DNA of 55,498 nt from Bacteroidales bacterium (GTDB taxonomy: Bacteria > Bacteroidota > Bacteroidia > Bacteroidales > UBA932). Position 1 is the stretch's first letter; every line of letters begins with the position of its first letter. The notes beneath the pieces are model-generated. The model was not told the DNA's origin. It was given only the letters and a program-made list of their open reading frames with translations, and did not search any database. The position numbers were made by a program, and so were the translations under genes. The stretch lies in the NCBI GenBank assembly GCA_017620335.1, contig JAFZQO010000043.1:77653-133150 (forward strand). The letters run 5' to 3'. Below, in pieces: positions 9,816 through 16,347 of the stretch.

Positions 9816-10409
9816 ATGAAGAAGTCCGCAGGCCGGAAACTCGTCATCCTTGGCGTCATCCTCGTGGTCGTCGACCAGGTCATCAAGGTCCTGGTCAAGA
9901 CCAACATGGGCCTGGGCGAGCATTTCGACGTGATAGGGAACTGGTTCAAGATCCTGTTCGTAGAGAACGAAGGCATGGCATTCGGCTGGGCCTTCGGCGG
10001 CAAGGTCGGAAAGTTCCTGCTGTCGCTTTTCCGCATTTGCCTTTGCGGTGCGCTGGTATGGTGGATCCGCAGCCTGTGCCGGAAGAACGAGGCCGCCCGT
10101 GCCGAAGGCAAGGCGGCGCCCATCCCCACCGGCGTGCTGGTCGGCCTGACGCTCATCACCGCCGGCGCATTCGGCAACATCATCGACAGCCTCTTCTACG
10201 GCGTCATCTGGGGTTACGCTCCGTTCCTGTTCGGCAAGGTGGTGGACATGTTCTACTTCCCGCTTTGGACTTGGCCCGACTGGCTGCCCTTGCTGGGAGG
10301 CCACCTCTTCTTCGAGCCTGTGTTCAACTTCGCGGACAGCTGCGTGACCGTCGGTGCGTTCTACCTGCTGATCTTCCAGTTCAAGTTCTTCACCAAGGGC
10401 GACGACTGA
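9816..10409 (+). CDS. lspA: Lipoprotein signal peptidase II
   Basis: This inner-membrane aspartyl protease removes signal peptides from diacylglyceryl-modified prolipoproteins. The 197-residue product has an N-terminal membrane helix (8-20), 'VENEGMAFG' (49-57), '[10 protein letters not shown]' (116-125), 'GKVVDMF' with the first catalytic Asp at 144, and 'FNFADS' with the second at 174. About 30 residues lie between the two Asp residues, against 18 in E. coli LspA; the extra residues form an aromatic loop (146-168). It starts 6 nt after the ileS-dksA stop, so it is co-transcribed. The many lipoproteins in this window would be its substrates. Confidence 0.95.
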
Positions 10410-10410
10410 T

Positions 10411-10441
10411 TTTGCACGGCGAAAGTTTTTGCCTATCTTTG
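10411..10441 (+). promoter_or_regulatory. Promoter of tRNA-Ser
   Basis: TTTG at 10411-10414, a 19-nt spacer and TATCTTTG at 10434-10441 match the Bacteroidota promoter consensus. The tRNA begins 28 nt after the -7 element. Confidence 0.8.
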
Positions 10442-10468
10442 CAGTCCCTCCGGGGACGATACATATCC

Positions 10469-10553
10469 GGTGAGTTGGCCGAGTGGTCGATGGCGTTGGT
10501 CTTGAAAACCAATGAACTGCAAGGTTCCGGGGGTTCGAATCCCTCACTCACCG
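10469..10553 (+). tRNA. tRNA-Ser(UGA)
   Basis: An 85-nt cloverleaf. The acceptor arms are GGTGAGT (10469-10475) and ACTCACC (10546-10552) with discriminator G10553. The anticodon stem TTGGT/ACCAA encloses loop CTTGAAA with anticodon TGA at 10503-10505. There is a long variable arm as expected for Ser, and a GGTTCGAAT T-loop. CCA is not encoded. UGA reads UCN serine codons, chiefly UCA. Confidence 0.95.
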
Positions 10554-10557
10554 CTGC

Positions 10558-10584
10558 AAAGCGTCTGCTCTGCAGGCGCTTTTT
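10558..10584 (+). terminator. Terminator after tRNA-Ser
   Basis: The arms AAGCGTCTGC (10559-10568) and GCAGGCGCTT (10572-10581) form a 10-bp stem with one G-T pair and a 3-nt loop, followed by a T run to 10584. Confidence 0.85.
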
Positions 10585-10663
10585 GCGGTTCGTGAGGGAT
10601 TGGCCCTGCGGGGTTTCCTCTCGCTTGTGGGCGTGGAACCAAGCTAATCTCCGGAAAAATGCA

Positions 10664-10671
10664 TACCTTTG
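10664..10671 (+). promoter_or_regulatory. Possible -7 element for the radical SAM operon
   Basis: TACCTTTG matches TAnnTTTG, but no good -33 TTTG is visible at the right distance. If it is used, transcription begins near 10678. The ATG at 10659 would then be upstream of the transcript, leaving ATG 10692 as the start of the radical SAM gene. Confidence 0.5.
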
Positions 10672-10691
10672 CTAAGAAGCCACTCAATCTG

Positions 10692-12038
10692 ATGAAACTG
10701 CTGCAAGAATACGCATCCATCCTGTCCGGGCTGCTGAAGGACCAGGGCCTCCTGGCAGGGGAGACTTATCGGCTGATGCGCTTTGTCGTGCAGCAACCGG
10801 TGGAGGAAGGGATGTTGCTGTATAACGTCTTGACCAAGGCCGTGGCTTTTCTTTCTCCGGAAGAGGCGGAAAAGATGGCGGAGAACCCAGCTTCCGTTCC
10901 GGAGTTGGTCGCGAAATGGTTCGCCGTCCCGATGGATCATGATGACCGGAAACTGGCTCAGGAGGTCCGTGCGGTGGGAAAGATGCTTGAAAAGCGCCCG
11001 AAGGGCATCACCGGCTACACCATCCTCACGACAACAGATTGCAATGCCCGCTGTTTCTACTGCTACGAGAAGGGACGCAGACGGATTCCGATGACGGAGG
11101 AGACGGCCGGGAAGGCGGCAGCGTTCATAATTCAGAATAGTCACGGAGAAAAGGTCAAACTCCGCTGGTTCGGCGGTGAGCCGCTCTACAACAAAGGAGT
11201 TATCTCCCTGATTTGCGGAAAGCTCCGTGACGCCGGCATAGAATACCGTTCATCGATGGTCAGCAATGGTTATCTCTTCGATGAAACAGTCATTGCTGAG
11301 GCCGTCGATCTCTGGAACCTCAAGAAGGTCCAAATCACCTTGGACGGTACGGAGGAGGTCTACAACCGGAGCAAGGCATTCATCTATCCGGAAGTAAGCG
11401 CCTATCTCCGTGTTCTCGGGAACATTCATCATCTGTTGGATGCCGGTGTCAGGGTGACTGTCCGGCTCAATATCGACCGGCACAACGCCGACAACCTCCT
11501 GGTCCTGGCCGAAAAACTGACCGCCGAGTTCTCCGGGCAGAAGCATTTTGACGTGTACAGTCACTCCCTGTTCGAAACCGGCTCGCAAGAAGCGGCCGTG
11601 TCACATACCGATACCCAGCGCAAGGAACTGTTTGATGCCAGGATGCGGTTGCAGGAGAAATTAAGGGAGGGGAGGATCACCCATGAGGGGGAACTGCCAT
11701 ACAAGTTGAAAATGAACCGCTGCATGGCTGACAATGACGCCAGCGTTCTCATCCTTCCGGATGGCCACTTGGGCAAGTGCGAGCACTTTACTGATGACCA
11801 CTGGTTCGGGCATCTGGATTCCCCGAATCGTGACGAAGCTGTCCTGGCGGATTTCAAGCAAATCCGGGAAGAGATCGACGCCTGCGCAGAATGTTTCTAT
11901 TATCCGGATTGCTACAGATTGGCAATGTGTGAGGAAACCGTCCATTGCTATCCCGAGGAGCGGGAGGAAAAGCTGCTGGAAACCCGCCGGATTCTGTTGA
12001 ATTACTATCAGAAAAAGCGTAATGAAGTATCGGATTGA
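10692..12038 (+). CDS. Radical SAM/SPASM peptide maturase
   Basis: The 448-residue product (459 if ATG 10659 is used) has a radical SAM core with CxxxCxxC at C117, C121 and C124 ('DCNARCFYC'). The downstream glycine-rich strand 'RWFGGEPLY' is typical of SPASM enzymes. The C-terminal third has many Cys, from 'KMNRCMAD' and 'GKCEHF' through 'CAECFYYPDCYRLAMC' to 'HCYPEE', fitting a SPASM domain with auxiliary 4Fe-4S clusters. Such enzymes install thioether, C-C or related crosslinks in ribosomal peptides. A PqqD-like gene overlaps its end by 17 bp, and a short Cys-containing peptide gene follows. I therefore infer a RiPP-type maturase; the modification itself cannot be told from sequence. Confidence 0.9.
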   Translation: MKLLQEYASILSGLLKDQGLLAGETYRLMRFVVQQPVEEGMLLYNVLTKAVAFLSPEEAEKMAENPASVPELVAKWFAVPMDHDDRKLAQEVRAVGKMLEKRPKGITGYTILTTTDCNARCFYCYEKGRRRIPMTEETAGKAAAFIIQNSHGEKVKLRWFGGEPLYNKGVISLICGKLRDAGIEYRSSMVSNGYLFDETVIAEAVDLWNLKKVQITLDGTEEVYNRSKAFIYPEVSAYLRVLGNIHHLLDAGVRVTVRLNIDRHNADNLLVLAEKLTAEFSGQKHFDVYSHSLFETGSQEAAVSHTDTQRKELFDARMRLQEKLREGRITHEGELPYKLKMNRCMADNDASVLILPDGHLGKCEHFTDDHWFGHLDSPNRDEAVLADFKQIREEIDACAECFYYPDCYRLAMCEETVHCYPEEREEKLLETRRILLNYYQKKRNEVSD

Positions 12039-12261
12039 AATGCAGCCTCTCGCCGGCCGGTTTGTCGTGGCATTGAAGGATCCCGAGACGGGAGACCTCG
12101 TGAAAGCGCTGTCCGTCAATGCGACGGCTGCGGAGATGTTACAACTGTACGTGGACGGTCAGGACATTCCGGCCATCGCCCGCACCCTGTCAGACAAGTA
12201 CGGCGTTCCCGCTGAACGTATCAGGCGCGATGCCGAAGCTTTGTTGTGCGGATTGGAATAA
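12022..12261 (+). CDS. PqqD-like peptide-binding protein (RRE)
   Basis: The 79-residue product begins with short beta strands ('YRIEMQPLAGRFVVAL'). It continues with 'LSVNATAAEMLQLY' and a helical C-terminus ('IARTLSDKYGVPAERIRRDAEALL'), the layout of PqqD-type RiPP recognition elements. These small winged-helix proteins bind the leader of a precursor peptide and present it to the radical SAM enzyme. The start codon lies inside the upstream gene (17-bp overlap), so the two are translationally coupled. Short size and context make the call likely but not certain. Confidence 0.8.
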   Translation: MKYRIEMQPLAGRFVVALKDPETGDLVKALSVNATAAEMLQLYVDGQDIPAIARTLSDKYGVPAERIRRDAEALLCGLE

Positions 12262-12264
12262 TCC

Positions 12265-12295
12265 TTTGATATCTAGCATATTTTGTTTATTTTTG
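12265..12295 (+). promoter_or_regulatory. Promoter of the precursor peptide/lipoprotein unit
   Basis: TTTG (12265-12268), a 19-nt spacer and TATTTTTG (12288-12295) make a strong consensus match, 3 nt after the pqqD-like stop. The short peptide gene and the large lipoprotein thus have their own promoter, with a leader of about 200 nt. Confidence 0.75.
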
Positions 12296-12365
12296 AAAAC
12301 GAATGTGCCGTTTCTTATGCCCACCCGTCCTTCATATTCCTTGAACATTCCCGTAAATATCTCAC

Positions 12366-12375
12366 GGGGGGGGGG
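12366..12375 (+). repeat. Homopolymeric G10 tract in the leader of the peptide gene
   Basis: Ten consecutive G residues lie about 65 nt after the predicted transcription start and 130 nt before the peptide ATG. The tract is inside a 24-codon open frame (12317-12391) that I do not consider a firm gene. Runs of this length are prone to slipped-strand change and also to sequencing error. Confidence 0.8.
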
Positions 12376-12504
12376 TATTAAGCAGTTATAAATCAATAGA
12401 TTATAAAAGAATCGTCTCGGAGCCGCCTTGCGGTCCCGGGCTTTGTCGTGCTTGGTCGATATCGGTCTGAACAAAATATGTTTAACGAATAAATGATTTG
12501 CGTT

Positions 12505-12645
12505 ATGAAAACAAATGAAAAGTACATCGCTCCTGAGAGTGAGGAGATTGCAATCAAGTTCGAAGGAAGTATTGCAGCCAGCTGTGAGGGCCATACTCAG
12601 GGGAATGAGGGGTGCAGTGATGATACCGGTTGCGATTTTGAATAG
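12505..12645 (+). CDS. 46-residue Cys-containing peptide, candidate RiPP precursor
   Basis: ATG 12505 opens a 46-codon frame ending at TAG 12643-12645. The first 26 residues form a leader-like part containing 'KYIAPESEEIAIKFEGSIAAS' split by charged residues, with a small-residue stretch ending at Ser26. The remaining 20 are Gly/Asp/Glu-rich with Cys at 27, 37 and 43. The 'Y-I-x-P-E-x-E-x-I' opening resembles short peptides common in Bacteroidota genomes, usually called hypothetical. It follows the radical SAM and PqqD-like genes and precedes the large lipoprotein by 15 nt. The precursor role is inferred from position and composition. An in-frame ATG at 12493 is not possible, because TGA follows it in its own frame. 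Confidence 0.6.
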   Translation: MKTNEKYIAPESEEIAIKFEGSIAASCEGHTQGNEGCSDDTGCDFE

Positions 12646-12660
12646 CCAACCGATGCGGTT

Positions 12661-15600
12661 ATGTCCATATCAAGAACCAATTCCGCATTCTTTGCGGTTC
12701 TTTCCCTGCTGATTATAGGATCCTGCTCCCGCATTGAGGGCCCTATGCTTCAGGGTGATTCTATGCAGGGGGAGCTTGTGACCGTCGAGGCTACATGGGG
12801 GGATCTCGTGGAGACCAAGACGGAGATGCAGCCCGCTGATGCGAGCGGCAAAAGTGCTATCTGGTGGAGTCCTGGTGATGCCATCAACCTGTTTTACGGC
12901 AGTTCGACAAAAGCCAAATTCACCACAATCGAGTCCATGACCGAGCCGTCACCCACGGCATCTTTCGAAGGGTATCTGGGCGCGGCAACCGGCTCGTCTG
13001 ATCAGGGTATCGCCACCCAGACTTTCTGGGGTGTGTATCCTTACGATGCAAACAATACATGTGACGGTACTGGTGTCACCATGACGATTCCGAGTGCCCA
13101 GAAGGGTGTTCCGGGGACATTCGCCAATAATCTGAATCCGAGTGTGGCCAACAGCCCCGGTCTGAGCCTGTCGTTCTACAATGTCGGCAGTTGGTTTATG
13201 TTCTCAGTCGTGACAGAAGGCATTACCTCCGTCACGTTCAAGGGCAACAATAACGAGGATCTTGTCGGCAAAATCCATGTGACGATGGGTACGGACACAA
13301 ACGGTAAACCTCGTCCGACTGCGGAGGTTTTGGATGGAGGCAAGGTTATCACGATGTCCCCTGAGGACGGAGGAGCCTTTGAGGTCGGCAAGATGTATTA
13401 CATGGTCCTTCTCCCTCAAACCCTATCAAACGGCTACACGTTCACGATGTACAAGGGCGATACGTTCGCTTATAGAAAGATTACCGCGAGTAAAACGTTC
13501 GGGATCTCCAGCTATGTGCCCGGAAGGCAGATTGACAACGGTCTTACCTGGGAGCAACTTTACGTCGACATGGGCGACGGTATCATGTGGGCCAAGATGA
13601 ACGTCGGAGCAAACTCGCCTGAGAACTACGGAGACTATTTCTCCTGGGCAGAGACCGTTACCAAGGACCGTTATGCGTGGGATACCTACAAGTACGGCAC
13701 TGCGAGTAACCTTACCAAGTACAATTCAACGGACGGCAAGATCGTCCTTGAGGCGGTAGATGACGCTGCTACGGCGAACTGGGGAGGCGACTGGAGGACT
13801 CCTTCGGCGGAAGAATGGCAGTGGCTGAGAGATCACTGCACCTGGACCAGCACGGCTGTGAATGGGGTCAATGGCTTTGAAGTGAAGAGCACAACTACCA
13901 ACAACACCATTTTCCTCCCATTTGCCGGATCGTTTGAAAATGATGGAATCGTGGAGTCAGGAAGTATCGCACATTACTGGTCATCGTCCCGTAATGATGG
14001 AGCACTGGGAATATCATATGCCATAGCTCCCTATGACGGTTCCATAGAAGATAATGCCAAACGTTGCTTCGGTCTTCCCGTCCGTGCGATACGTGGCGTA
14101 AGCGCCCCTGACCAAGCGTTTGTGGAACTTGGTCCCGGCATCAAGTGGGCGACGATGAATCTCGGCGCGACCTGCGAGACGGATCATGGCGACTATTTCG
14201 CCTGGGGCGAAACGGAGCCGTATTACAGCAGCTTGGATCCAAGGACCTGGAAGGCCGGTAAGGAATCCGGTTACGACTGGGCTTCCTATACGAAATACAC
14301 GACTGACGGCGGGAATACCTTATCGAAGTATGTCTTGAACGATAGTTACGGAACTGTGGACGGCAGGACTGTCCTGGAGGCGGTTGATGATGCCGCTACT
14401 GCAATTTTGGGAGAAGACTGGCGCACCCCGACCCGAGCCGAATGGGGTTGGCTCTATTCAAATTGCACCTGGGACTATGGGGAGAAGAACGGTGTTTATG
14501 GTTTCACGGTAACGAGCAATGTCAGTGGGTATGAAAGCAATAGCATATTCATTCCAATGGCTGGATCAGGGGATGGCACTAATATCTATGGGGGTGGTGA
14601 AAGTATGATCATCTACTGGACATCCTCATTAGAATGGGATCCATGGTATCCTTCAACTAATACAGCCTCACTTTTTTGGAAGTCAAAGCCTCTTTCCGGT
14701 GGCGTAGCTATTATCGGGTCTGATTCTTATTTCCGTTGTAAAGGTTACCCTATCCGCCCCGTTTGCATGCCGAAGACATCCGTGTCCGGTATCAGCCTGA
14801 ATACGACAAGTGCCAATTTGACCGTCGGAGAAACCTCGCAACTTAGCGCGACAGTTACTCCGAGCGAGGCGACGGAAAAGGGTTATGTGTGGTCCTCATC
14901 CGACGAATCAGTTGCGACGGTAAACAGCTCGGGGACAGTAACCGCCGTCGGTGGCGGTACCGCCACAATCACCGCGACGACGGTGGACGGCGGCTTTACC
15001 GCATCTTGCGAAGTGACCGTATTGGGGTATGTAGAGATGGATGAAGGGTTCAAGTGGGCGACGATGAATATCGGTGCGACCAGCGAAACGGACTTCGGCG
15101 ACTACTTCGCCTGGGGCGCCCCGGTGCCTAAGGTCGGTACTCCGGCCGGCTATACCTGGGGGACCTACAAGCACATGTATCCCAACATGTCTGACCCCTA
15201 TGGCATCAATAAGTATCAGGTGGAAGATAATCAGACAATGTCGATGTGGTATAACGGAAGTACCTTTACCGGCGATAACAAACTGACGCTTGATGCGGAG
15301 GATGATCCTGCCACGGTGATCTGGGGTAGCAAGTGGCGTTCTCCGACAAAAGAGGAGTGGGTGAGATTGGCAGATATGGATAAGTTCAGGTGGCTGTGGC
15401 AAGATGATTATAACAACACAGGTGTCGCAGGTATGCTTGTTACCAGCAAGGTCCCCGGTTATCAGGGTCATTCGATCTTCCTTCCCCTTACGGGCACTAT
15501 GAATGGATCTGTGCCCGACTTTACCTATGGTGTTTATTGGACATCAACACTTTATGAGAGCTATACGACCCAAGCATACGGCTTGAGTTTCGCTTCGGGT

Positions 15601-15672
15601 CAGAGTTATCCCGATTCATCTTCGATTCCAGAGCGTTACCTCGGTATACCCGTCCGTGCCGTTTTGAAATAG
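12661..15672 (+). CDS. Large surface lipoprotein: fimbrillin-like N-terminus, three FISUMP-type modules, one BIG2-type domain
   Basis: The 1003-residue product has a lipoprotein signal ('LIIGSC', Cys at residue 22). Residues about 35-295 resemble fimbrillin-type domains ('ETKTEMQPADASGKSAIWWSPGD' region, then 'FWGVYPYDA'). Three related modules follow, starting near 300 ('YVDMGDGIMWAKMNVGA'), 490 ('GPGIKWATMNLGA') and 792 ('DEGFKWATMNIGA'). Each has a 'GDYF(S/A)W(A/G)' motif, a 'W.TP(S/T)..EW' or 'WRSPTKEEW' motif and a closing 'G.PVRA' type strand, as in the Fibrobacter major paralogous domain. A BIG2-like domain with 'SGTVTAVGGGTATITA' lies at about 710-785. It is likely surface exposed, for binding or assembly. 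It shares a transcript with the 46-residue peptide. Confidence 0.8.
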   Translation: MSISRTNSAFFAVLSLLIIGSCSRIEGPMLQGDSMQGELVTVEATWGDLVETKTEMQPADASGKSAIWWSPGDAINLFYGSSTKAKFTTIESMTEPSPTASFEGYLGAATGSSDQGIATQTFWGVYPYDANNTCDGTGVTMTIPSAQKGVPGTFANNLNPSVANSPGLSLSFYNVGSWFMFSVVTEGITSVTFKGNNNEDLVGKIHVTMGTDTNGKPRPTAEVLDGGKVITMSPEDGGAFEVGKMYYMVLLPQTLSNGYTFTMYKGDTFAYRKITASKTFGISSYVPGRQIDNGLTWEQLYVDMGDGIMWAKMNVGANSPENYGDYFSWAETVTKDRYAWDTYKYGTASNLTKYNSTDGKIVLEAVDDAATANWGGDWRTPSAEEWQWLRDHCTWTSTAVNGVNGFEVKSTTTNNTIFLPFAGSFENDGIVESGSIAHYWSSSRNDGALGISYAIAPYDGSIEDNAKRCFGLPVRAIRGVSAPDQAFVELGPGIKWATMNLGATCETDHGDYFAWGETEPYYSSLDPRTWKAGKESGYDWASYTKYTTDGGNTLSKYVLNDSYGTVDGRTVLEAVDDAATAILGEDWRTPTRAEWGWLYSNCTWDYGEKNGVYGFTVTSNVSGYESNSIFIPMAGSGDGTNIYGGGESMIIYWTSSLEWDPWYPSTNTASLFWKSKPLSGGVAIIGSDSYFRCKGYPIRPVCMPKTSVSGISLNTTSANLTVGETSQLSATVTPSEATEKGYVWSSSDESVATVNSSGTVTAVGGGTATITATTVDGGFTASCEVTVLGYVEMDEGFKWATMNIGATSETDFGDYFAWGAPVPKVGTPAGYTWGTYKHMYPNMSDPYGINKYQVEDNQTMSMWYNGSTFTGDNKLTLDAEDDPATVIWGSKWRSPTKEEWVRLADMDKFRWLWQDDYNNTGVAGMLVTSKVPGYQGHSIFLPLTGTMNGSVPDFTYGVYWTSTLYESYTTQAYGLSFASGQSYPDSSSIPERYLGIPVRAVLK

Positions 15673-15690
15673 GCCAAACCTTCTTTTTGC

Positions 15691-15723
15691 ACTTCCGCCA
15701 TCTCAAATCGAGGTGGCGGAAGT
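15691..15723 (+). terminator. Terminator after the lipoprotein gene
   Basis: The arms ACTTCCGCCA and TGGCGGAAGT pair perfectly and extend inward by TCTC/GAGG, giving a 14-bp stem with a 5-nt loop. The T-rich tail is weak on the + strand. Confidence 0.6.
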
Positions 15724-15751
15724 TGCTTTAACCCCAATGGAGGGGGCGTTG

Positions 15752-15782
15752 TTGGGAAATAGCGGGCAAATGTTTATTTTTG
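15752..15782 (+). promoter_or_regulatory. Promoter of the TlpA-like gene
   Basis: TTG at 15752-15754, a 20-nt spacer and TATTTTTG at 15775-15782. The -7 element is a full match; the -33 is partial. The ATG follows 16 nt later. Confidence 0.65.
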
Positions 15783-15798
15783 GGAAAAATCAACGGGT

Positions 15799-16347
15799 AT
15801 GAAGAAGATATTGATGCTTTTGGCGGCGTTTGCCGTGGCGGGGACGCTCACATGTCCCGGTGCCGATGGGGATTACAAGGTGACGGGCAAGGATGCGCCG
15901 GAAGACGGCGAGGCCGTCCCCGAGCTCGTCGGACAGAAGTTCCTGGACCTCGAAATGGCCGATACCCAAGGCGAGTCCCACAAGCTCAGCGAGTACGTGG
16001 GGCAGGGCAAGTGGGTGCTGGTCGATTTCTGGGCGTCGTGGTGCGGCCCCTGCAGGGCGGAGATGCCCAACGTCGTGGCCGCATACAAGAAGTACCGCGA
16101 CAAGGGCTTTGAGATCGTGGGCCTGTCCTTCGACCGCGAGAAGGAGTCTTGGGTGAGGGCAATCAGGGAATGGGACATGCCCTGGATCCATCTTTCGGAC
16201 CTGAAGTACTGGCAGTCGGTCGCGGTCGGCCTTTATTCCGTCACGGGCATTCCCGACAATCTCCTGATCGATCCGGAGGGCACCATTGTCGCCCGCGGTC
16301 TCAGGGGCAGGGCACTGGAGGCCGCGCTCGCCGAGATTTTTAAGTAG
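15799..16347 (+). CDS. TlpA-like periplasmic thiol:disulfide oxidoreductase
   Basis: The 182-residue product has a signal peptide (residues 1-18), so it is periplasmic or membrane-tethered. The thioredoxin fold carries 'FWASWCGPCRAEMP' with the redox pair C82/C85 and the cis-proline strand 'TGIPDNLLID'. The N-terminal 'GQKFLDLEMADTQG' is the usual AhpC/TlpA-type opening. Such proteins reduce disulfides in exported proteins or serve cytochrome c maturation. It appears to be a single-gene unit with its own promoter. Confidence 0.92.
   Translation: MKKILMLLAAFAVAGTLTCPGADGDYKVTGKDAPEDGEAVPELVGQKFLDLEMADTQGESHKLSEYVGQGKWVLVDFWASWCGPCRAEMPNVVAAYKKYRDKGFEIVGLSFDREKESWVRAIREWDMPWIHLSDLKYWQSVAVGLYSVTGIPDNLLIDPEGTIVARGLRGRALEAALAEIFK

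Follow-up and report, generated by a model that had tools for sequence, protein, structure and literature searches.

A 55,498-nucleotide stretch of the genome of a gut-type Bacteroidales bacterium (assembly GCA_017620335.1, contig JAFZQO010000043.1), referred to here as the window, contains a set of four forward-strand genes that encode a radical S-adenosylmethionine (SAM)/SPASM maturase, a PqqD-like RiPP recognition element (RRE), a 46-residue Cys peptide and a 1003-residue lipoprotein, where RiPP denotes a ribosomally synthesized and post-translationally modified peptide. The system is best read as a new radical SAM variant of the RRE-dependent RiPPs with a YxxP leader. All of its components are known in kind; no report of their combination was found in the open-access literature. 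An earlier sequence-only reading of this DNA had recognized the enzyme, the leader-binding protein and the Cys peptide as a RiPP-type set, and this assignment is supported by the leader test, the RRE profile and the fold match described below. The four genes with their coordinates, the 17-bp overlap of the first two, the promoter 3 nt after the PqqD gene, the cysteines at positions 27, 37 and 43, and the 15-nt gap between the peptide and lipoprotein genes were all confirmed.

Cys-tailed peptides and the maturase clade

The window peptide (P0003) belongs to a family of short peptides that share the leader motif Y-x-[AS]-P-E-x-E...EG-[VI]-I-[CA]-x-S and carry an acidic tail of variable sequence behind it. 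Relatives were found in 207 of 300 congeneric genomes (E ≤ 0.05 per genome), with up to 12 matches in one genome. The search profile (A2) comprised five peptides and was seeded with those of the window and of locus L028; since this seed carries Cys-tailed peptides, the search is biased towards finding Cys tails, that is, against the result reported here. Altogether, 75 family copies were read from 72 loci, and removal of one repeated place and two identical peptides left 72 controls. The control loci comprise the 28 best-ranked ones, 40 hand-picked among the matches listed, and L039, L041, L042 and L103, which lie in genomes that bear a clade maturase but not beside it. YxxP is present in 72/72 controls (the profile that found them contains the motif), and the leader offsets show Glu at +13 in 65, Gly at +14 in 58 and Ser at +19 in 61 of the 72. 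P0003 matches no Pfam model, and none of the peptides in alignment A4, namely P0003 and nine others encoded next to clade maturases, has a match in NCBIfam.

Pairing was scored with a leader model built from 71 control leaders, so that no peptide adjoining a radical SAM gene contributed to it. The model was applied to all small open reading frames (ORFs) that lie up to 1.5 kb from a radical SAM gene on the same strand. Matches above 10 bits were obtained at 8 of 15 clade loci versus none of 19 other radical SAM loci, where the maximum was 1.3 bits. The scores were 36.5 bits for the window, 35.9 for G573, 27.5 for G482, 25.5 for L028, 23.4 for G540, 21.6 for G504, 18.2 for L031 and 13.1 for G355, and weak matches occurred at two more clade loci (L032, 5.2 bits; G590, 3.2 bits). 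All eight peptides above 10 bits carry tail cysteines, seven with 1–6 each and that of G504 with at least one, by eye. A 10-peptide set assembled by eye for the Cys count includes L030 and L032, which have no strict YxxP, and omits G504, so that eight is the fair count. Among the controls, a tail Cys is found in 1/72 (L103, in G296, a genome bearing a clade maturase elsewhere); a second printed case, L049, was removed as a start-codon artefact. The pairing looks to be in cis, because the leader peptides L039, L041 and L042 have no tail Cys. At the sequence level, the Cys tail tracks the radical SAM clade.

A radical SAM gene of this kind was seen in the fetched stretch of 0/72 controls, so the sequence-only reading's own counter-argument, that homologues of the peptide might occur mostly without a SPASM/PqqD pair, is literally borne out. 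It loses its force, however, because the part shared with these homologues is the leader only, while the Cys tail follows the radical SAM gene. The same reading had described the pairing with a lipoprotein, rather than with a transporter or protease, as an unfamiliar arrangement. A lipoprotein follows the peptide in 60/72 controls under a simple lipobox rule; the pair is common and is not the novelty. Nor is it peculiar to the radical SAM system, since members of this leader family, which most of the congeneric genomes searched contain, are usually arranged in this way. What is restricted is the complete order radical SAM–RRE–peptide–lipoprotein, which was found in the window and L028 only. 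L028, the metagenome-assembled genome RUG12336, encodes a radical SAM protein 61% identical to the window maturase, followed by an RRE, a 60-residue peptide with four Cys and, after 14 nt, a lipoprotein. The search for the gene order in relatives proposed at the outset returned one recurrence, with the leader and tail Cys accompanying the maturase at just over half of the clade loci. A peptide–maturase–RRE order occurs in G573, G540, G482, G355 and G590, the last with the weakly matching peptide. In G504 (L102 223–1115) the ORF of the leader peptide continues into a radical SAM gene whose N-terminal part is missing, which looks like a deletion or an assembly error. Loci L049–L076 and L105–L144 illustrate how very commonly short YxxP peptides are paired with large surface lipoproteins.

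The maturase matches the Pfam Radical_SAM model PF04055 (2e-11). Eight of nine relatives in alignment A1, whose starts were set to the first ATG in the respective frame, begin at residue 12, the column of position 10692, which favours that start over the upstream ATG. The CxxxCxxC cysteines are 117/121/124 counted from 10692 and 128/132/135 counted from 10659. In the latter numbering, C128/132/135 and C355, C374, C409, C412, C418, C424 and C430 are invariant in 16 sequences; we take the seven further cysteines to be the SPASM motif. NCBIfam assigned the maturase to no family: the best score, to TIGR04463, was 122.9 bits against a cut-off of 525, and membership in the TIGR04463, Clo7bot, geopeptide and PapB families was rejected, the protein being far below every cut-off. 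An AlphaFold2 model from the 16 sequences predicts the fold with pLDDT 85.3 and pTM 0.84. Its best Foldseek matches in the PDB are 5why/5wgg over nearly the full length, then TigE (8vpo), SkfB (6efn) and SuiB, with EpeE also among the matches, and in a sequence search 5wgg is the closest solved relative (2.5e-20). The 5wgg/5why entries, presumably CteB, are titled with thioether bond formation. By eye, the N-terminal strands and helices of the model (residues 37–91) resemble a built-in RRE.

The clade is rare and patchy. In the genus sample, 8 of 200 genomes match the maturase at 1e-15 and four are clear clade members by score (G000, which is the window's genome, G296, G314 and G203). Of 398 genomes sampled in the family, 20 reach the 1e-40 threshold, and the clade members by score are nine matches in eight genomes (G000, G203 twice, G590, G573, G540, G482, G355 and a fragment in G504). 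The order-wide sample of 295 genomes contains no clade member other than the window's own genome. A named-genome scan added L028–L032, titled uncultured Bacteroidia, Prevotellaceae, Oscillospiraceae, Acetatifactor and Lachnoclostridium; 3 of 299 genomes from the family of L032's genome match at 1e-70, one being L032's own and the others distant.

The RRE, the core locus and the proposed pathway

The discrete RRE (P0002) matches the Pfam PqqD model PF05402 (3.1e-9; 37.5 bits against a cut-off of 23.4). Compared with solved structures, a profile of 12 RREs finds TfuB1 (6jx3) at 1e-11 and TbiB1 at 6e-8, and LppB (9x8z) and PbaB1 weakly, at about 0.005; all four were solved with a leader peptide (6jx3, 5v1u/5v1v, 9x8z and 9x90). 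P0002 has N33, Y60 and D70 at the same numbers as LppB. In LppB, N33 fixes the leader backbone at Pro and D70 bonds Tyr, with N33A almost abolishing and D70A reducing leader binding (PMC13381572). Among 11 RREs linked to radical SAM genes, N33 and Y60 are conserved in 11/11 and position 70 is Asp in seven and Glu in four, and the 37 RREs of the core locus described below have Asn in 36, Tyr in 37 and Asp in 36 at these positions. In a midpoint-rooted tree of the 48 sequences, the radical-SAM-linked RREs form a separate group with support of 0.98. Two distinct RRE clades in one genome keep the same predicted YxxP-binding residues.

The second PqqD gene of the window's genome lies at G000:C9 (L003 8567–11819), in the order kinase-like, signal-peptidase-like, PqqD, ATP-binding cassette (ABC) gene. 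PqqD matches occur in 171 of the 200 genomes of the genus, and all four core genes are present at 22 of the 30 best congener PqqD loci. The kinase match is weak (HprK_rel_A, 16.2 bits versus 200), and a Walker-type motif is visible by eye. A signal-peptidase-like homologue is present in 14/15 clade-bearing genomes, in six of which, the window's own included, the full four-gene set is visible in the fetched stretch; the one clade-bearing genome without this homologue, that of L032, has a kinase-like and a signal-peptidase-like gene beside its maturase. Across the 200 genomes, tabulated by hand from the two genus searches, PqqD and leader peptide occur together in 129, peptide alone in 9, PqqD alone in 42 and neither in 20 (Fisher p = 6e-6). 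In the high-quality genomes, peptides are found in 55/71 with PqqD versus 0/9 without (p = 9e-6), the nine consisting of six named genomes plus three from a group of seven unlisted ones, a group in which no peptide occurs. Candidate nucleoside triphosphate (NTP) transferase ORFs adjoin PqqD in L149 and L150, as judged by eye.

From these data we infer a pathway that we consider probable as a whole. The discrete RRE, possibly aided by the built-in one, would capture the YIAP leader in its cleft and so present the Cys tail to the maturase. The maturase would modify residues 27–43 of the 46-residue peptide, most likely by joining the sulphurs of Cys 27, 37 and 43 to carbons of nearby residues as thioethers. 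The G000:C9 locus may then phosphorylate the peptide, cut it near the EG-x4-S box and export it, a route that unmodified members of the leader family would share. Finally, the product would act at the cell surface together with the lipoprotein encoded 15 nt downstream, a role suggested by the location of that partner gene beside the peptide gene.

Several observations weigh against this pathway. Peptidase, kinase and exporter genes are absent in cis at the window cluster, and the proposed role in trans of the core locus is suggestive only, because the co-occurrence statistics ignore shared ancestry and the core loci show no leader peptide: none above 5 bits was found in the fetched stretch of L003 or of the 30 best congener loci, and a precursor adjoining the core PqqD genes was therefore rejected. 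As a lone query P0002 finds no solved RRE significantly (TfuB1, 0.24), so the structural match needs the family profile. The maturase's apparent N-terminal RRE-like domain means that the discrete RRE may have another role. At five of the 15 clade loci, the surrounding 1.5 kb contain no peptide of the leader family: G203, which is cut by a contig end; G296 and G314, which share a neighbouring dehydrogenase and have no peptide next door; L030, with a Cys peptide of another leader type; and L029 (1523–7595), in which two clade maturases, four near-identical Gly-Gly (GG)-leader peptides and an RRE precede HlyD-like and PCAT-like genes (by eye; PCAT, peptidase-containing ABC transporter). A clade maturase beside a different precursor, which the sequence-only reading named as a possible refutation if consistent, is seen at one of the 15 loci, L029, the other four showing no leader match. 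G296 has no PqqD adjacent to its maturase, and no leader peptide is seen at L176–L178, more distant relatives that belong to the same family as L032's genome. Cys number and spacing vary widely among the clade peptides, so that the cross-link pattern is not predictable, and the lipoprotein type encoded in the window also accompanies a peptide whose tail has no Cys (L118). Many sampled genomes are incomplete drafts, which weakens all statements of absence.

The peptide might instead be a small partner of the lipoprotein, serving as a chaperone, regulator or translational leader with cysteines that bind metal or form disulphides, while the radical SAM/RRE pair acts elsewhere, perhaps on the lipoprotein itself. 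In keeping with this, peptide–lipoprotein pairs are the rule in controls that have no radical SAM neighbour, and the peptide unit has its own predicted promoter directly after the RRE gene. Lipoprotein-like genes lie within 300 nt on the same strand at 6/15 clade loci (window, L028, G296, G314, G540 and G504), two of which, G296 and G314, lack a leader peptide. The remaining nine loci have no such neighbour (G482 has a likely one by eye, which would be the seventh), but G573, G355 and L031 among them do have the peptide, and the lipoproteins, where present, differ in type and position. With 3/19 at other radical SAM loci, the link of the lipoprotein to the clade is weak, and it was rejected as a mark of the clade. 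Tail cysteines, on the other hand, are rarely seen other than in peptides encoded next to the maturase, and the leader is of the kind bound by RREs. A partner role without modification is therefore quite unlikely. A purely fortuitous neighbourhood, in which a mobile radical SAM/RRE pair inserted at tRNA-Ser beside an unrelated peptide–lipoprotein cassette, would suit the tRNA gene just upstream and the rarity of the clade (1/295 order genomes, 4/200 congeners, the window's own counted in each), but appears highly improbable: the repetition of the gene order in L028 and the same-leader Cys peptides at 8/15 versus 0/19 loci make the arrangement more than chance.

If the maturase does act on the peptide, it may do so without forming thioethers, through C–C or C–O cross-links, epimerization or oxidation, and the cysteines may serve another purpose. 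SuiB and EpeE, which we take to make no thioethers, are among the fold matches, and the Cys spacing is not conserved. In contrast, the best match by both sequence and fold is the thioether enzyme 5wgg/5why, with TigE and SkfB next, and the tail cysteines are the feature that sets the putative substrates apart from the controls; we consider a non-thioether product unlikely. Thioether formation on an RRE-held peptide, followed by processing in trans, is the pathway that we favour. A wider scheme is possible and is put forward tentatively. Across the genus, one YxxP leader code would mark lipoprotein-paired peptides for maturation in trans by a single core locus, and a rare branch would add an RRE and a cross-linking radical SAM enzyme before the common export, with two RREs reading the same leader. 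The products would be lipoprotein-partnered surface peptides rather than diffusible antibiotics. Apart from this scheme, the results suggest a function class, that of RiPP-like peptides that are processed and exported, for short peptides whose family is present in 207/300 genomes of one genus and is easily overlooked because most members have fewer than 60 residues. They link this leader family both with large surface lipoproteins and with a compact radical SAM system.

Locus layout and surface-protein neighbours

Table 1 Features of the RiPP-type locus in window coordinates.
Feature	Position	Strand	Description
Radical SAM/SPASM maturase	10692..12038	+	448 aa; alternative ATG at 10659 gives 459 aa
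Discrete PqqD-type RRE (P0002)	12022..12261	+	79 aa; 17-bp overlap with radical SAM gene
Promoter TTTG-N19-TATTTTTG	12265..12295	+	Predicted; exact match; 3 bases past PqqD stop
Precursor peptide (P0003), putative	12505..12645	+	46 aa; leader YIAPESEEIAIKFEGSIAAS and tail with Cys 27, 37, 43
YxxP motif YIAP	12523..12534	+	Residues 7–10 of leader; predicted RRE contact
Surface lipoprotein (P0004)	12661..15672	+	1003 aa; Big_2 and Lcl_C/FISUMP repeats

The TTTG-N19-TATTTTTG element is the predicted promoter of the peptide/lipoprotein unit and matches what we take to be the Bacteroidota promoter consensus. Within the roughly 200-nt stretch between it and the peptide gene, a run of ten G occupies positions 12366–12375. 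It is the sole G/C run of at least eight in the window, 2/75 control upstream regions also have such a run, and it could allow slippage (phase variation). A structured RNA in the long 5′ untranslated region was considered and rejected, the predicted fold being no better than for shuffled sequences (z −0.05), and an Rfam scan of positions 10300–15900 matched the tRNA and nothing else. Between the end of this tRNA-Ser(tga) gene (10469–10554) and position 10692, where the maturase starts, lie 137 nt, and a further TTTG-N19-TA..TTTG match is located ahead of the tRNA gene at 10411–10441. It is possible that the tRNA gene marks an integration site or shares a transcript with the maturase.

In the lipoprotein (P0004), Pfam identifies Big_2 (PF02368, 2.3e-15) and Lcl_C (PF07603, 4.2e-9). 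By eye, a lipobox-like IIGSC and three FISUMP/Lcl_C-type repeats are visible; the domain searches gave two passing stretches. The description of this protein as fimbrillin-like was rejected: Pfam gives that label no support in P0004, nor in the control proteins, of which 10 out of the 43 complete ones were scanned. The N-terminal domain of P0004 is homologous to the lipoproteins of L028 (3e-32) and of L118 (1e-29), the latter belonging to the cassette with the Cys-less tail. Other surface-protein genes were noted near clade maturases. FimB/Mfa2-like lipoprotein genes were recognized by eye upstream of the maturase in G314 (L034 3660–4487, minus strand; no Pfam match) and near the maturase on the other strand in G573 (L098). 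G540 and G482 encode related-looking lipoprotein-like proteins of 563 and 566 residues (L099 9272–10963, minus strand, and L100 5195–6895), about 100 nt upstream of the leader peptide and of a type unlike that of the window.

Comparison with known systems

In the Bacteroidales, radical SAM RiPP clusters are known that combine GG-leader peptides with PCAT exporters (PMC10352776). By eye L029 is of this type and, of the 15 clade loci, it alone fits. The window peptide, by contrast, has no GG motif and the window locus no PCAT, and assignment to that system was rejected. Sactipeptide and ranthipeptide maturases (CteB, SkfB, TIGR04463 and PapB) resemble the window maturase in the radical SAM domain with seven further conserved cysteines, in the Cys-containing target next to the maturase, in the N-terminal RRE-like region and in the fold match to 5wgg/5why. 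The window system differs from them in falling far under every NCBIfam cut-off shown, in its YxxP leader, in its separate RRE gene and in having no peptidase or exporter in cis. Lasso peptide systems share the YxxP leader and a B1-type RRE, TfuB1 and TbiB1 being the best solved relatives by family profile though not significantly by single sequence. A lasso peptide was rejected since the B2 peptidase family (Transglut_core3, PF13471) has no match in the window's genome, the macrolactam (Asn-synthetase-like) synthetase lying outside the search; 5 of 101 genus genomes match the B2 family at 0.001 and one passes the cut-off.

The linear polyphosphorylated peptides (LPPs), described from Bacillota by Popov et al. 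(2026), offer a further comparison (PMC13381572). Their leader box is YxxPxVLxHQxIxFETxxS, with cleavage after the Thr and phospho-Ser at core position +3, and the YxxP motif is present in lasso and LPP leaders alike. The window family shares with the LPPs the YxxP leader, a box that contains Glu and a conserved Ser ahead of a hypervariable tail, as well as the discrete RRE with N33/Y60/D70. Kinase-like, signal-peptidase-like (with S-H-D motifs), RRE and MsbA-like ABC genes also occur together, in a locus that is widespread in the genus and present in the window's genome; the LPP NTP transferase stays outside the likeness, no search for it having been made in the core locus. The differences are equally marked. 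The LPP text contains none of the terms 'radical SAM', 'rSAM' and 'bacteroid', and here a radical SAM/RRE pair adjoins the Cys-tailed members. Precursors of the window type do not lie beside the kinase/peptidase locus and are paired with lipoproteins instead, the HprK-like kinase, SpI-like peptidase and MsbA-like exporter being together in trans at G000:C9 rather than in cis in the window. By eye, the box spacing is FEG-x4-S, with Gly in place of Thr, as opposed to FET-xx-S in the LPPs.

The window system was filed as a new variant because it lacks the LPP cluster in cis and the lasso B2 match and lies outside the named radical SAM families. LPP and paeninodin-like RREs are reported to have evolved so that similar [Y/W]xxP-leader pathways do not interfere (PMC13381572), whereas here the opposite, leader sharing within one genome, seems to occur. 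With two RRE clades in one genome and one leader across the peptides of the genus, leader sharing versus discrimination becomes directly testable.

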